From assembly GCA_026625165.1 (NCBI GenBank), contig CP112999.1:1240001-1304000 (forward strand): a stretch of 64,000 bases of DNA, written 5' to 3'. A model generated the notes under the pieces. That model had not been told where the DNA came from. It did no database searches and worked only from the letters and a program-made list of their open reading frames with translations. The stretch's first letter is position 1. The number at the start of each line of letters is the position of its first letter. Below, in pieces: positions 35,733 through 42,984 of this stretch. The DNA comes from Methanoregula sp. (GTDB lineage Archaea > Halobacteriota > Methanomicrobia > Methanomicrobiales > Methanospirillaceae). The position numbers were made by a program, and so were the translations under genes.

Positions 35733-35811
35733 GAACAGCGTTGCCCGTGCGGCAGGGGCTGTTCGCTCCGGGCGGAAATTGCTAAAAAGATCACGGCGGG
35801 CGGGGAGCTGG

Positions 35812-36095
35812 TCCAAAAAACCCTCCTCCCGGGACCTCCCACGTCCCAAACCACGTGCCCTCCTGCCACCGGTTGCTGTAACATCGCTAAATACGACCGC
35901 ACCCGTTCCCGCCGGAGAGCCTGCAATTATTCCGGCCCGGATTCCGCATTTTTCGGATGTCGAATGTTGAAAACATGAGACATGAGAAGACAACAGTCTT
36001 CGAATATTATGACCGCTGGAATCCGGGGGCCGGGGGAAAAGAGGTACAACCGGGCCCGATATGTGCCCAGTTGTACCAGAATTCCTTCAGGGGTT
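35812..36095. repeat. Dispersed repeat R, copy 1 (with hairpin insertion)
   Basis: Non-coding repeat of about 220 bases shared with three other places in the island. Conserved blocks include AACATCGCTAAA, TTCCCGCC, ATTCCGGCCCGG, GAGGTACAACCGGGCC and TTGTACCAGAATTCC. The last two form a hairpin. Compared with the other copies this one carries about 46 extra bases at about 35955-36000 that include the perfect stem GAAGAC-AACA-GTCTTC at 35986-36001. Confidence 0.8.
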
Positions 36096-36346
36096 TTAAG
36101 GGAGTGAATGATCTCACTCTCCGACGGCGGATCCCTGCCCGGGCCCTATGTGGAGGTTCAGGTTCCCAGGCATCCACGGTTTGGTATAAACCTGACACGA
36201 TCAAAAAAAACCCGGAGCCCGGTGCGGGCGTGCGCCGCGGCTCATGCAGTCCCGTTTTTATTTTCACCCTGCACCGTCACACTTTATGTGCCGGAACTTC
36301 CGGTATATATTTGGAGAAAGAATATTTTTTTGCCGGGAACCAGGAC

Positions 36347-37207
36347 ATGAAACCAGCAATTATCCGACGTCTTCATAAAAATTTCGAGGACTACGTTCAC
36401 GCACAGGAAGGTGTTGAGTTCTGGTTCGCCCGGGATTTGCAGACACTTCTCGGATATGATGAATGGAGAAATTTTCTCAAGGTTATTGAAAAAGCCAAAG
36501 AATCGTGCGAGAAATCCGGTAATATTGTTCCGGACCATTTTGTTGACGCCAACAAAATGGTCTCACTTGGATCGGGTGCAAAACGGGAGATCGAAGATCT
36601 CCTCCTTACCCGTTATGCCTGTTACCTCATCGCCCAGAACGGTGATCCCCGGAAAGAAGAGATCGCGTTTGCCCAGAGTTATTTTGCGGTCCAGACCCGC
36701 AAGCAGGAGATCATTGAAGACCATATCCGGCTTGCTGAACGGCTGAAGGCAAGAAAACAGCTGAAAGATTCGGAGAAAGAATTATCCCGGAATATTTACG
36801 AACGAGGCGTGGATGAATCAGGTTTTGCCCGGATCCGGAGCAAAGGGGATATGGCTCTCTTTGGGGGCCAAACAACCGGCATGATGAAAAACCGGTTGGA
36901 AATTCCGGAAAACCGGCCTCTCGCAGATTTCCTCCCGACCGTCACAATTACCGCAAAGAATCTTGCAACCGAGATCACGAATTTCAATGTTACCAAGGAA
37001 GATATGCAGGGCGAAGACCCGATCACGGTCGAACATGTCCAGAATAACCAGGATGTCCGCGAGCTGCTCCTGAAGCGGGGAATCCAGCCGGAAACCCTCC
37101 CGCCGGAAGAAGATCTCATAAAACTTGAGCGCCGGATAAAAAAACAGGAAAAAACGATAGCGGGCCGGGCAGAGAAAATTTCTCCACAGCTGCGTGACAG
37201 CAAATAA
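36347..37207 (+). CDS. dinD: DinD-like DNA-damage-inducible protein
   Basis: 286 residues from the ATG at 36347; the frame is open further upstream but there it runs through repeat R. The N-terminal domain (FEDYVHAQEGVEFWFARDLQ) has the Bro-N/DinD pattern, followed by KVIEKAKESCEKSG and LTRYACYLIAQNGDP. The C-terminal half has helices and VTKEDMQGEDPITVEHVQNN. This fits DinD, which in E. coli is SOS-controlled and inhibits RecA. In archaea it is usually a horizontally spread accessory gene. It sits between repeats R1 and R2. Confidence 0.88.
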   Translation: MKPAIIRRLHKNFEDYVHAQEGVEFWFARDLQTLLGYDEWRNFLKVIEKAKESCEKSGNIVPDHFVDANKMVSLGSGAKREIEDLLLTRYACYLIAQNGDPRKEEIAFAQSYFAVQTRKQEIIEDHIRLAERLKARKQLKDSEKELSRNIYERGVDESGFARIRSKGDMALFGGQTTGMMKNRLEIPENRPLADFLPTVTITAKNLATEITNFNVTKEDMQGEDPITVEHVQNNQDVRELLLKRGIQPETLPPEEDLIKLERRIKKQEKTIAGRAEKISPQLRDSK

Positions 37208-37233
37208 GAGAGAAAAGAACTGCCCGGATCCGG

Positions 37234-37478
37234 GTCCGGAAAACCCTCCTGCCATACCCCCCCACATCCAAAACCACATCCCCTCCGTTCCTGGATTGCA
37301 GTAACATCGCTAAATGCGACCTCCCCCATTCCCGCCGGAGAACTGCCAATCATTCCGGCCCGGTTCCTGTGTTTTTCCGAATTACGACCTCTGGTTTTCA
37401 GGGAGTAAGGGAAAAGAGGTACAACCGGGCCTTTTAAAGGCTCCGTTGTACCAGAATTCCCACGGGGGTTTCCCTGAC
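37234..37478. repeat. Dispersed repeat R, copy 2
   Basis: About 245 bases, aligning over most of the length with copies at 35812, 38552 and 40425. It lacks the extra hairpin block present in copy 1. A hairpin at about 37419-37452 (GGTACAAC to GTTGTACC) is conserved. It lies directly 3' of the broken orphan gene at 37516-37938. Confidence 0.8.
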
Positions 37479-37515
37479 GGTTAAAACCCCTCTTTCCGAT
37501 GTTACCCATAGTGAT

Positions 37516-37938
37516 TCACGCCATCGTCTGTCCCGACACGATCCGTTTGCCCTCGCGGTCGATCTCTACCAGCGCGTCCGGCATGACGAGGAAGAACCGC
37601 CATGTCCCGTGCTTGGACCGGATCCAGAGCTCGGCCGTGATGGCCGCATCCCGGGCGATGAGCCGGAGCTGGGCGATCTCGTCCTTGAATTCATCCGTAA
37701 GCTCCTGGATCGTTGCAAGAATTGCCGGCGCGAACATGACCCGCACGAATGCGACCGGAATCTTCGAGACGATCGCAATGTCGAAGACCTGCGGTCTTCT
37801 CCTCCTACGGGTTTGTGTGAACCCATCGGATATCGAAGACCCGCTCCGGCCCGCTCAATGTCATCTGGATCATGCCACGTGCCTTCGCGATCGGGACCGC
37901 TTCTTCCAACGCCCGGTGCGGGCGGGGGCCGCGGCTCA
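37516..37938 (-). pseudogene. Broken copy 1 of the island's orphan gene
   Basis: The minus strand from the ATG at 37938 encodes the same protein as the intact gene at 40708-41118 (SRGPRPHRALEEAVPIAKAR at the start, ELWIRSKHGTWRFFLVMP near the end). It carries a 52-bp insertion at 37789-37840 that shifts the frame and adds a TAG stop. The two halves are otherwise well preserved, so the damage is recent. Function unknown. Confidence 0.8.
37789..37840. repeat. 52-bp palindromic insertion in orphan gene copy 1
   Basis: The direct repeat TCGAAGAC at 37781-37788 and 37833-37840 brackets the insertion; the intact paralog has only one such site. It contains the hairpin GAAGACC-TGC-GGTCTTC (37783-37799) and a second stem GGGTT-TGTGTG-AACCC. 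The same insertion sits at the same place in copy 2 (39107-39158). Confidence 0.8.
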
Positions 37939-38038
37939 TGGGAGGCGCCTCCTTTCATCCGGTGTTGGTCGTCGCTTCCGGCACGAGACACCATTGTAGT
38001 CAGAAACCGTAAATAATTACAATACCCATTATTCATTA

Positions 38039-38245
38039 ATGACCGGCCAGAAATGCGCCACCAAGAGAATCCCGGTCTGTCCAGGCACGTGGGAAACCGT
38101 CCACCAGCTCAGGAAACCCGGACAGACGTATGACGATGTTATCCGGGATCTTATCCAAAAGGGATCGGAGAACCTCCTTGTTGCTGAAACAGCGCGGATC
38201 AGAAAGAGGGGCATGTACGGTTCGCTTTCGGAGATTCGTAAGTGA
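38039..38245 (+). CDS. Antitoxin-like protein, partner of RelE-type toxin
   Basis: 68 residues. The N-terminal part (KRIPVCPGTWETVHQLRKPG, then TYDDVIRDLIQKG) resembles short archaeal antitoxins with a strand-helix-helix DNA-binding motif. The tail (RIRKRGMYGSLSEIRK) would bind the toxin. Its stop overlaps the toxin start (GTGA), as is usual for toxin-antitoxin operons. The pair is bounded by the broken orphan gene and repeat R3. Confidence 0.75.
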   Translation: MTGQKCATKRIPVCPGTWETVHQLRKPGQTYDDVIRDLIQKGSENLLVAETARIRKRGMYGSLSEIRK

Positions 38246-38526
38246 GTTTTACAGTCCGCATCGACATCGATGCGATCGATTTTATCAATTCCCGGACTGA
38301 CAAGAGCCGGCGGATCATTGAAAAACATTTAAAAGCGCTCGAAGAAGATCCTTTCCCCGGATCCCGCGGCGACAAGGAACTATTGATTCTCCGGCCGGGT
38401 GTGAAGATCTATCGTCTCCATATCGCACGTATGTTCACCGCATTCTACGAGATCGAAGAGAGCACGGTCTTTGTGAACGAAGTCATGACCATCGAGCAGG
38501 CCCATAAGAAGTACAAGGGACTTTAA
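38242..38526 (+). CDS. RelE/ParE-family toxin
   Basis: 94 residues starting at a GTG that overlaps the antitoxin stop. The order helix-helix-strands with GDKELLILRPGVKIYRLHIA, MFTAFYEIEESTVFVNEVMT and a final IEQAHKKYKGL fits the RelE/ParE fold. Such toxins cut mRNA on the ribosome or inhibit gyrase; which one applies cannot be told here. Confidence 0.75.
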   Translation: MSFTVRIDIDAIDFINSRTDKSRRIIEKHLKALEEDPFPGSRGDKELLILRPGVKIYRLHIARMFTAFYEIEESTVFVNEVMTIEQAHKKYKGL

Positions 38527-38551
38527 CCGGCCTTCCGGACCGAGTTTTGAG

Positions 38552-38795
38552 TCCGGAAACACCCCAGGCCGGTACCAGCCCACATCCAAAACCACATCCC
38601 CTCCTGCTTTCAGCCCCGGTAACATCGCTAAATGCGACCTCCCCCATTCCCGCCGGAGAACTGCCAATCATTCCGGCCCGGTTCCTGTGTTTTTCCGAAT
38701 TATGACCTCTCAAACCAGAGAAGTGAGGGGAAAGAGGTACAACCGGGCCTTTTGCGGGCTCCGGTGTACCAGAATTCCCGCAGGGGTTCTCAGAA
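38552..38795. repeat. Dispersed repeat R, copy 3
   Basis: Very close to R2, for example CCAAAACCACATCCCCTCC and AACATCGCTAAATGCGACCT are identical. The terminal hairpin (GGTACAACCGGGCC to GGCTCCGGTGTACC) is kept with changes. It lies 3' of broken orphan gene copy 2. Confidence 0.8.
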
Positions 38796-38833
38796 GGGGG
38801 GGAATCCTTTTCTTCGACTGTAGCCCTGGCCGT

Positions 38834-39290
38834 TCACGTAACCGTCTGTCCCGAAACAATCCGTTTCCCCTCGCGGTCGATCTCGACCAGCGTATTCGGC
38901 GTGACAAGGAAGAACCGCCACGTCCCGTGCTTGGACCGGAGCCAGAGCTCGGCTGTTATGGCCGGGTCCCGGGCGATGGCCCTGAGCGAAGCGATCTCTG
39001 CCTTGTAATATTCCGCAAGTTCCGTAATCTCCGCGAGAATTTTTGGCGCGAACATGACACGGATAAACGCAACCGGCACCTTCGAGATGATCGCAATGTC
39101 GAAGACCTGCGGTCTTCTCCTCCTCCGGGTTTGTGTGAACCCATCGGTTATCGAAGATCCGCTCCGGCCCGGCAAGCGTCACCTGGATCATGCCCCGGGC
39201 CTTGGCGATCGGGATCGCTTCCCTGAGCGCCCGGTGCGGGCGGGGGCCGCGGTGGATCATGGCCGGCGGGTAATGGAATATCGCTCTCAT
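38834..39290 (-). pseudogene. Broken copy 2 of the island's orphan gene
   Basis: The minus strand from an ATG at 39290 gives MRAIFHYPPAMIHRGPRPHR and then the family sequence (PHRALREAIPIAKARGMIQV). After a 52-bp insertion the frame is lost and continues elsewhere as DIAIISKVPVAFIRVMFAP and LWLRSKHGTWRFFLVTPNTL. The insertion is the same as in copy 1, so the two broken copies descend from one already broken gene. Confidence 0.8.
39107..39158. repeat. 52-bp palindromic insertion in orphan gene copy 2
   Basis: Same position and nearly the same sequence as in copy 1, bracketed by TCGAAGAC (39099-39106) and TCGAAGAT (39151-39158). The stem GAAGACC-TGC-GGTCTTC lies at 39101-39117. Confidence 0.8.
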
Positions 39291-39402
39291 CAACAGGGAA
39301 AAGGTTTTTAACGGAGGATATGTATGACTCTAGCTATACAAAACTGCGATCACTCCGACATCTGTCGTCATTTGAAATAACAACTGAAATGGGAAAATCA
39401 AC

Positions 39403-40116
39403 ATGAAGAATATCGCAATGAAAGTGTTGCCCGTGGTTCTGTTTTTGGTTCTGCTTCTGGTCCTTGGTGCCTGCATGATGAAACCAGCAGACAACGACAC
39501 CAGCTGCAATTGCAGACCTTACGGTCAGGTTGTGAGCGGCACTCCGGGCATGCTGAACGTTCCTGACATGAAAAAAATAGTCTCCGGCATCTCAGGGCCG
39601 GGATCCGGGGACGGGAACTCCTTTTCGGAGCGGGAAGGTTTTCCCCTTACTCATCAGCAGATCCTGAAACATCTGAGGACGGCCAACGAGGTTGCCAGGG
39701 AAGCGAAGGCATCCGGCCACCACCCCTTTGGCGCAGTGCTTGTGGCGCCGGATGGCGAGACGGTGCTGATGAAACAGGGAAACATGGGGGGTCTCTCGCA
39801 TGCCGAAACAGAGCTTTCACGGCGGGCGTCTGTGCAATACGATCCTGATTACTTGTGGAATTGTACCCTGGTTACGACGTTTGAACCGTGCGCCATGTGC
39901 AGCGGAAACATCTATTGGGCCAATATCGGAAATATGGCCTATGGCCTTCCGGAAACCACGTTGAAGAACCTGACCGGCGCAAGCAAGAGCAATCCCACGA
40001 TGAACCTGCCGTCCCGCACGGTCTTTGCGGCGGGGCAAAAGGCTATCCGGGTGGCGGGCCCCTTTCCGGAACTGGAAGACGAACTGGTTGCCCCCCACAG
40101 GGACTTCTGGAAATGA
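39403..40116 (+). CDS. Exported nucleoside-deaminase-like lipoprotein
   Basis: 237 residues. An N-terminal signal peptide with lipobox (VLLLVLGAC, Cys24) and a linker of about 50 residues lead into a complete cytidine/guanine-deaminase-type domain: ANEVAREAKASGHHPFGAVL, the zinc motif SHAETE (His-Ala-Glu) and FEPCAMCSGNIYW (PCxxC). The C-terminus resembles TadA/guanine deaminase-type enzymes (VAGPFPELEDELVAPHRDFW). All catalytic residues are present, so an active zinc hydrolase on the outside of the membrane is predicted, which is unusual for this family. It lies between R3/orphan copy 2 and R4. Confidence 0.85.
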   Translation: MKNIAMKVLPVVLFLVLLLVLGACMMKPADNDTSCNCRPYGQVVSGTPGMLNVPDMKKIVSGISGPGSGDGNSFSEREGFPLTHQQILKHLRTANEVAREAKASGHHPFGAVLVAPDGETVLMKQGNMGGLSHAETELSRRASVQYDPDYLWNCTLVTTFEPCAMCSGNIYWANIGNMAYGLPETTLKNLTGASKSNPTMNLPSRTVFAAGQKAIRVAGPFPELEDELVAPHRDFWK

Positions 40117-40424
40117 AATCTGCTGTGCTCTCTCTGACGTTATTTCCTTTTTTACCCGGGTAAAGTATCAACCCGCCCCTGGCCGTACTTTTCTTCATAG
40201 TTCGATTCACTTAGAAAGAGTAACGGCAGTGGTTCGGATTTGGTCTAACTGCACATGCGGGGATTTTACTCACACCGCTGGATCTTTATTTCTCATTGCC
40301 GTTAGAATTACAATAATAGCCGGGTGTATATGATCCAGATGGACCGGCTCACTGTGGATCGTGCGACACCCGATGTCTTCGCAGGTTCTGTGGGAGTGTC
40401 CGGCTGTCTGGCACCATCACCTGC
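40117..40424. other. Gene-free stretch after the deaminase gene
   Basis: No gene is recognised. The stretch begins with T-rich DNA after the deaminase stop (TTATTTCCTTTTTTAC) that may end its transcript. It leads into repeat R4. Confidence 0.5.
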
Positions 40425-40640
40425 CAATATCGGCAACGTCCCAAACCCCATCACCTCCTCTCCCGGGTCGTAGTAACATCGCTAAACGTGACCTCATCAA
40501 TTCCCGCCTGAGAACTGTCATTTATTCCGGCCCGGATTCCGCGTTTTAACGAATTATGACCTCTGAAATCCGGGGGGTGAGGGAAACGAGGTACAACCGG
40601 GCCATTTACGGGCCCCGATAGTAAACGGGAATCATAGAGA
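40425..40640. repeat. Dispersed repeat R, copy 4
   Basis: The most diverged copy: AACATCGCTAAACGTGACCT, TTATTCCGGCCCGGATTCCG and GAGGTACAACCGGGCC are kept, but the right half of the terminal hairpin is mutated. It lies 3' of the intact orphan gene. Confidence 0.7.
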
Positions 40641-40707
40641 TTACGAGGAGGAGGGAGCTGAGGGTTTTCAGACCCGAAGCTGGAGAAGAGTCCGCAGGAC
40701 TCTTCGA

Positions 40708-41118
40708 CTAGGCCGATCCCCCCTCAGTAGCAGCTACCCCGGTCAGGTACGCCATCGTCTGTCCCGACACGATCCGTTTCCCCTCGCGGTCGATCTCAAC
40801 GAGCGTCGATGGTGTGACCAGGAAGAACCGCCACGTCCCGTGCTTTGACCGGAGCCAGAGCTCGGCCGTGACGGCAGCGTCGCGGGCAACCAACCGGAGC
40901 TGGGCGACCTCCTCCTTGAATTCATCCGTAAGCTCCTGGATCGTTGCAAGAATTGCCGGCGCGAACATGACCCGGGCGAATGTGACCGGTACCTTCGATA
41001 TGATCGCGATGTCGAAGATCCGCTCCGGCCCGCTCATCGTCACCTGGATCAGGCCACGCGCCTTCGCGATCGGGATCGCTTCCTCGAGCGCCCGGTGCGG
41101 GCGGGGGCCTCGGCTCAT
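40708..41118 (-). CDS. Orphan protein, the intact member of a three-copy family
   Basis: 136 residues, family not recognised. It is Arg/Pro-rich at the start (SRGPRPHRALEEAIPIAKAR), followed by FDIAIISKVPVTFARVMFAP, a helix with LTDEFKEEVAQLRLVARDAA and a strand-rich end ELWLRSKHGTWRFFLVTPST, then VEIDREGKRIVSG. The middle and end are the most conserved between copies, so selection on the protein is likely. A GGGAGGTGA upstream belongs to a 12-codon ORF (ATG near 41153) whose stop overlaps this ATG, suggesting coupled translation. Each copy has repeat R just 3'. Confidence 0.7.
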   Translation of the reverse strand: MSRGPRPHRALEEAIPIAKARGLIQVTMSGPERIFDIAIISKVPVTFARVMFAPAILATIQELTDEFKEEVAQLRLVARDAAVTAELWLRSKHGTWRFFLVTPSTLVEIDREGKRIVSGQTMAYLTGVAATEGGSA

Positions 41119-41179
41119 GCTGGCCGCCCCTTGATGCTCATTATTTCTCTCATGGTTTGTTTCACCTCCCTGTGATTCT

Positions 41180-41864: not shown

Positions 41865-42581
41865 GTGTCATTTCAGCATCGCCATTATCTTACAGATAAA
41901 CATCCCATCCCCTCACCGTTGGGTGTGAACATCTACATTGACGAATCCGGGGATTTGGGTTATCCCGACGGATCAAAATTTTTTGTGTTCGGGGCGATAA
42001 TTATCAAGAATCATGATGATGAAAAATGCTGCAAGAAACGTGTGACCCGGGCGAAAAGCAAGATACAGAATTATTACCATTATGATGAACTGAAGAGTGC
42101 GCACCTCCATGATCACTGCCGGGAAGTTGTGATCCGGGAAATCCTCAAGGGGGATTACGATTTTGCGTATTCGCTGTTACGAAAAGATGATGTAAAACCT
42201 GAACTCCGGGATACCTCCGGCTTATACAACTGGCTCGCAGCGAAAACCGTTGAGGAAATTATTATTGAATACGGATTTAGGAGCGATGTCAATGTGATCC
42301 TGGACAAATCCCTGTACGGCATCAAGCAGCACGAGTTTAACCAGACCATGATGGCGAGGTCATTCGACCGTTTCAACAAATACCGGAATCTGGAAGTCAG
42401 GATCTTTCACCGGAATTCAAAGACAGAATACGGGATCCAGATTGCAGATATTGTTGCGGGAACCGTGTACCAGCATTATACCCGGTATAACCGGAACCCG
42501 GCGCATGAACATAATTATTTCCCGAAAATATGCGATAAGACAACAGTTGCGCTGGACTTCTTCAAAGGGAGACGGAAATAA
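41865..42581 (+). CDS. DUF3800-family protein
   Basis: 238 residues. NIYIDESGDLGYPDG near the start and GIQIADIVAGTVYQHY near the end are the two hallmarks of DUF3800, a predicted RNase H-like fold found beside mobile elements and defence genes. The middle contains LLRKDDVKPELRD and VNVILDKSLYGIKQHEF (the likely further acidic residue). The start is a GTG at 41865; a later GTG (residue 21) just before the IDESG strand is also possible. It is probably accessory; no partner gene is evident. Confidence 0.82.
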   Translation: MSFQHRHYLTDKHPIPSPLGVNIYIDESGDLGYPDGSKFFVFGAIIIKNHDDEKCCKKRVTRAKSKIQNYYHYDELKSAHLHDHCREVVIREILKGDYDFAYSLLRKDDVKPELRDTSGLYNWLAAKTVEEIIIEYGFRSDVNVILDKSLYGIKQHEFNQTMMARSFDRFNKYRNLEVRIFHRNSKTEYGIQIADIVAGTVYQHYTRYNRNPAHEHNYFPKICDKTTVALDFFKGRRK

Positions 42582-42984
42582 GAAGATGTGAAGCCTTTCC
42601 CTACTTTGTCACACCACTGAAAAGTGGCCTCATCCTTTTCGGGAAGGACTTACTCACTGGTATTAGACTGTCCATTATAACCTTATAATTGTTTTTGTAT
42701 TTCCCATCATCATAATCTGAGATTAATCAATGAAACGAATCTCATCCAGCCGGATAGTCTGATTATGGATGATACACCTTCACATCCCGCCCGCGATCCC
42801 TTAACCTTCTGTCACCCGAAATCACGCCGGCAGGCATTCCAGCTACCAGATCACCTGCCATCGTTGCCATCACGCTTGGGTGTACATGGGCACAGGAAGT
42901 TTTCACGGAACGCGGGCTGGATTAGGTCCGTAATTGAGCAGGGGGAGCGAATTAGGCCGAGGCAGAGAAGGGGCCGGGACCTGT
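42582..42984. other. Gene-free stretch left of repeat S2
   Basis: No gene is recognised. The minus strand has a short open frame (about 42766-42873, MATMAGDLVAGMPAGVISGD at its start) that could be the end of a lost gene, but I cannot name it. Confidence 0.3.

Follow-up and report, generated by a model that had tools for sequence, protein, structure and literature searches.

The Deaminase Locus and Its Surroundings

The open reading frame at 39403-40116 (+) of the window, by which we mean the whole 64,000-nucleotide stretch of Methanoregula DNA that was analyzed, starts with ATG, encodes 237 amino acids, and is real and complete. Its N-terminus, MKNIAMKVLPVVLFLVLLLVLGAC, runs from a basic start through a hydrophobic core to a lipobox, and the gene as a whole is cargo, flanked on each side by a copy of a repeated module about 700 bp long. 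The features of the locus are listed below.

35810-41130, cassette-like array in which a module of about 700 bp occurs three times in full and once in part, with different cargo after each copy
39264-39402 (+), upstream stretch common to loci L009, L010, and L028 by DNA similarity, with a TATACAAA-like element; presumed promoter region, a putative function
39403-40116 (+), whole gene of the lipoprotein-type zinc deaminase, 237 aa, from the reading of the ORF and family matches
39403-39474 (+), signal sequence with lipobox, residues 1-24 (LGAC, Cys24); core and Cys kept in 6/6 signal-bearing homologues, codon position 2 least changed
39475-39642 (+), disordered linker, residues about 25-80; changes even across codon positions, pLDDT <50 at residues 31-73, almost absent in L012
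39643-40113 (+), deaminase domain, residues 81-237, with H133-A-E135 and P162-C163-x-x-C166; from Pfam, alignment, and predicted and solved structures

Module copies lie near 37233, 38551, and 40405, with the partial copy near 35810, and their cargo comprises a Bro-N/PDC-S13 gene, a small ORF pair, the deaminase, and a DUF3800 gene. Within the genome, the module DNA is nearly confined to this array (nine matched pieces, one of them elsewhere). The DNA that resembles other carriers extends from about 39264 to 40191, little beyond the gene itself, and the deaminase thus appears to move on its own together with its upstream region. For the same reason no conserved neighbor could be an immunity gene; the initial annotation had advised looking for one nearby, and no neighbor proved to be conserved across carriers. 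Comparison of the carrier loci by DNA similarity likewise turned up no conserved metabolic partner in the methanogens. The initial annotation had placed the gene in a mobile-looking island among toxin-antitoxin genes. The toxin-antitoxin part of this description finds weak support: no family model reaches its curated cut-off for the ORF pair at 38039-38526, though the second ORF of the pair is 42% identical to an L009 ORF that matches ParE below threshold. L009 also has a similar Bro-N gene, including an 85% identical DNA stretch near the deaminase, and a small ORF pair nearby in another arrangement; we interpret these as additional cargo belonging to the same type of island.

Several further elements of the array and its edge can be recorded. 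The Bro-N protein encoded at 35957-37207 (+) matches PADLOC PDC-S13 at 1.8e-116 and is a phage-defence candidate. At 40708-41118 (-) lies a gene for a 136-aa protein from a family without a Pfam match over cut-off, which has paralogues in 28 of 121 relatives and 11 matched stretches in this genome; both of its other copies within the array are broken. An Rfam DUF3800-X RNA (RF02984, 58.4 bits) is found at 42586-42659 (-), directly downstream of the DUF3800 gene that occupies 41865-42581. A Sigma-70 scan, which is not suited to archaea, returned nothing upstream of the deaminase gene.

Enzyme Identity and Active Site

Residues 87-181 match PF00383 (E 1.1e-12, 48.1 bits against a cut-off of 25), and both this score and the HxE...PCxxC motif place the protein among the zinc deaminases of that family. 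H133, A134, E135, C163, and C166 are invariant in all 20 aligned sequences and P162 is present in at least 90% of them. The claim of a complete zinc motif is thereby confirmed, with HAE and PCxxC whole and the ligands invariant, and the alignment indicates an intact zinc site. An AlphaFold2 model built with 20 sequences (mean pLDDT 78.6, pTM 0.66) has a helix at residues 2-24, an unstructured region with pLDDT <50 at residues 31-73, and a domain predicted mostly with confidence from residue 84. The linker thus modeled, roughly 55 residues long, separates the signal ending at Cys24 from the deaminase domain.

The closest solved structure is Msmeg3575 (Msd) from Mycobacterium smegmatis, with a Z score of 23.3 and an rmsd of 1.9 over 151 residues at 30% identity. 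It shares the fold across the whole domain as well as the zinc motif, but it has neither signal nor linker and reads HPE and EHCPMC where the window protein reads HAE and EPCAMC. According to the entry titles, Msmeg3575 was crystallized with ammeline, 5-azacytosine, and 5-azauracil (PDB 5xko, 5xkp, 5xkq, 8wlv). Since identity is only 30%, the substrate of the window protein may differ; we would expect a free base that is guanine-, isoguanine-, cytosine-, or triazine-like. TadA is the second structural match (Z 18.2). Assignment as a TadA tRNA adenosine deaminase was considered and rejected, the NCBIfam equivalog model giving 37.9 bits against a cut-off of 150. GuaD-type guanine deaminases (PDB 1wkq, 1tiy) share the fold of the zinc site (E 3.4e-8) and are more distant than Msmeg3575.

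Evidence for an Export Signal

To our knowledge, base deaminases of this fold are regarded as cytoplasmic enzymes. The lipoprotein signal that had been claimed for this one is present, with its basic start, core, and lipobox. Changes counted by codon position over the 10 pairs of five methanogen sequences amount to 70/28/57 in the signal, 109/134/121 in the linker, and 85/81/190 in the domain, and the variable columns, listed likewise by codon position, number 12, 5, and 9 of 16 in the signal core, 22, 26, and 24 of 56 in the linker, and 19, 17, and 42 of 157 in the domain. Changes in the domain are therefore mostly silent and those in the linker are spread evenly. In the signal, few changes fall at codon position 2, the position that does most to set hydrophobicity, as in a segment that has to remain hydrophobic while its residues interchange, and the pattern indicates that signal and lipobox are under constraint. 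The sixth signal-bearing copy, L012, keeps the start, the core, and the Cys and has lost nearly the whole linker. It contains no ATG, GTG, or TTG from the lipobox to the first domain helix, and its next in-frame start is a TTG at codon 41, inside that helix. A translation start after the signal, which would have undone the claim of export, is contradicted most directly by this copy. With a constrained signal, a drifting linker, and a stretch from lipobox to domain that in L012 holds no start codon, such a start is very unlikely.

Among cytoplasmic relatives, no signal was found in 14 of 15 signal-less loci or in any of six plasmid genes. The exception is the sister bacterial sequence L013, where a marginal hydrophobic stretch (mean 2.44) without a lipobox follows a TTG start; this counts against our reading. 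By inspection, the haloarchaeal relatives L100-L103 have no signal. Chance seldom produces this architecture: four ORFs of the window pass a signal-plus-lipobox rule and none does in any of 20 first-order Markov resamples, a result that belongs to a rule of our own, written after the sequence was seen, as opposed to a trained predictor. By this rule and by the conservation in 6/6 copies, the protein has the signal, lipobox, and Cys of an archaeal Sec lipoprotein, and a lipid anchor would be expected to follow. Published work puts Sec-type lipoproteins of non-halophilic euryarchaea at 7-20% of predicted secreted proteins and describes M. hungatei as being without Tat (PMC2945643), and another paper presents AliA/AliB of Haloferax as dedicated archaeal lipoprotein machinery (PMC12186497).

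Distribution and Ancestry

The signal-bearing architecture occurs in six genomes, five from Methanoregulaceae and the sixth, L012, a MAG labelled bacterium. A search of the order's 232 genomes finds the gene in 5, all of one family, and this rarity implies that any benefit is conditional. In a tree of 28 rows the six signal-bearing copies form one clade (100/99) inside bacterial sequences. This clade adjoins two proteobacterial sequences (94/85) and is held in a set of 13 rows (97/96) together with plasmid genes that lie beside NCS2 symporters. The tree indicates a single origin for the signal and descent of the deaminase from cytoplasmic enzymes, whose genes often accompany base transporters; the L012 copy likely reflects a cross-domain transfer. 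The domain is under purifying selection, with dN/dS of 0.09-0.30 over 10 pairs.

Uptake and catabolism of nucleobases are the themes suggested by the genes around the bacterial relatives, even if not all of these loci fit. An NCS2 symporter adjoins the relative in 4 of the 6 plasmid regions that are annotated (a seventh has no annotation). The cytoplasmic "nucleoside deaminase" genes beside NCS2 on Pantoea, Erwinia, and Pandoraea plasmids have 50-54% domain identity to the window protein and fall in the same larger clade, but they are without an export signal and are linked to a base importer. The Acinetobacter relative neighbors urate hydroxylase, allantoicase, and a BMP-type ABC transporter; the Rhizobium relative neighbors creatininase and an amidohydrolase; and L015 and L016 have LysR, an NMT1 ABC transporter, and a PRK12393/8-oxoguanine-deaminase-like amidohydrolase nearby. 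The neighbors of L013, L014, L017, L019, and L022 have no clear link to bases.

Carriage by viruses was also considered. None of 75 pattern matches in viral_contigs was confirmed as a relative, and the six matches among phage records each fall below 60% identity with none covering 80% of the query. The L012 contig carries bacterial-type genes, with a RidA-family gene near the signal-bearing deaminase.

Proposed Role and Alternative Explanations

On balance we favor the reading that the protein is a small-base zinc deaminase of the cytidine-deaminase fold, drawn from bacterial salvage or catabolism and displayed outside the cell after a single gain of a Sec lipoprotein signal and flexible linker. 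Methanogens would have acquired a bacterial enzyme of nucleobase salvage or catabolism, and the signal and linker, gained once, would have led to its display outside the cytoplasmic membrane. The deaminase would be exported by Sec, probably anchored by a lipid, and hung on its flexible tether outside the membrane, where it would remove the amino group from a small base by hydrolysis. In several bacterial relatives an importer accompanies the enzyme; the methanogens seem instead to have moved the enzyme out. Ammonia released outside the cell is our favored guess for the benefit; it would be taken up by Amt, and the base itself would not be imported. Alternatively, the cell may benefit because a toxic base, or an analogue, is removed. 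In a search that covered NCS2 and NCS1 as base importers, none of the five archaeal carriers has either over cut-off, and all five have Amt. This combination suits a harvest of ammonia alone. Neither feature marks the carriers, since Amt is likewise present in all 14 control genomes and NCS2 is often missing in relatives (over cut-off in 20 of 61). The suggestion that the enzyme acts on external nucleobases has gained ground from descent from enzymes often beside base transporters and from a nearest fold that is a free-base deaminase.

An enzyme that stays internal like its relatives, either because the hydrophobic segment is an anchor facing the cytoplasm or because translation starts after it, seems to us unlikely. 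Cytoplasmic relatives do begin at the domain, and a GTG at codon 44 is common to the window, L009, L010, and L011. However, the Cys is kept in 6/6 copies, L012 lacks any start codon in the stretch from lipobox to domain, all five full-length copies keep the linker in frame, and the basic start, followed by a short core free of charges and then the lipobox, agrees with Sec export. We think it quite improbable that the protein is exported yet inactive, or that the gene is decaying on a mobile island: the patchy distribution and the broken ORFs in neighboring repeat copies would suit decay, but the dN/dS values and intact zinc ligands speak for a maintained enzyme.

Slightly less probable still is a secreted weapon or nucleic-acid deaminase of the polymorphic-toxin type, directed against neighboring cells or extracellular DNA or RNA; the initial annotation had raised a weapon-type deaminase as well as action on DNA or RNA outside the cell. 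The domain matches MafB19-deam in Pfam (6.8e-8, 32.9 bits against a cut-off of 27), and the island also holds a phage-defence-candidate gene. Yet all five signal-less metabolic relatives outscore the window protein on the MafB19 model, so that the match is unspecific, and PADLOC gives nothing for the deaminase. MafB19-type polymorphic toxins combine a delivery domain with an adjacent immunity gene, whereas this is a stand-alone protein of 237 aa whose neighbors vary by genome, leaving no conserved candidate for immunity. The weapon is thus unsupported, and action on extracellular nucleic acids finds no backing in an ancestry often beside base transporters and a fold nearest to a free-base deaminase.

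A Second, Probably Exported Deaminase and Implications

Export of a base deaminase is probably not confined to the window protein. Other PF00383 loci of the order were surveyed for signals in a non-random set (6 matches of one search and the 30 best-scoring of another, with L007 and L083 at the same place), and 1 of the 36, representing 35 distinct places, is signal-like. It belongs to G036, another Methanoregulaceae genome.

L008:859-1758 / G036:C2:72926-73822, exported GuaD-like protein, 299 aa, with an N-terminal hydrophobic segment and a match to 1wkq (1.8e-26)

L008, which is only distantly similar to the window protein, has an NCS2 permease at a distance of about 2.2 kb; a search of the remaining 231 genomes of the order at E 1e-12 gave one partial relative. 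Roughly 80-90 uncharacterized residues lie between its hydrophobic segment and its deaminase domain, and the segment is possibly a membrane anchor instead of a cleaved signal. Because L008 carries a signal-like segment and yet resembles the window protein only distantly, export of base deaminases probably arose twice here. We offer, tentatively and as the less probable case, a broader proposal: that at least two independent times in methanogens a surface-located nucleobase deaminase came to harvest ammonia from dissolved nucleobases with no need for base import, an archaeal ectoenzyme route for nucleobase nitrogen.

A search of open-licence papers found no archaeal or lipoprotein-type exported base deaminase. 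Two papers (PMC10358891, PMC11004436) concern secreted animal deaminases, ADGF/ADA2 and SNAD, which resemble the proposed enzyme in working outside the cell but are of the nucleoside/nucleotide or AID/APOBEC type, unlike an archaeal lipoprotein. If the favored reading is true, a surface deaminase would show that base nitrogen is harvested, or base analogues neutralized, outside the cell. It would also provide a clean case of an enzyme relocated through the gain of a lipoprotein signal during transfer between bacteria and archaea, and it would supply a small protein with which to test the Sec lipoprotein pathway of non-halophilic archaea, about which little is known.
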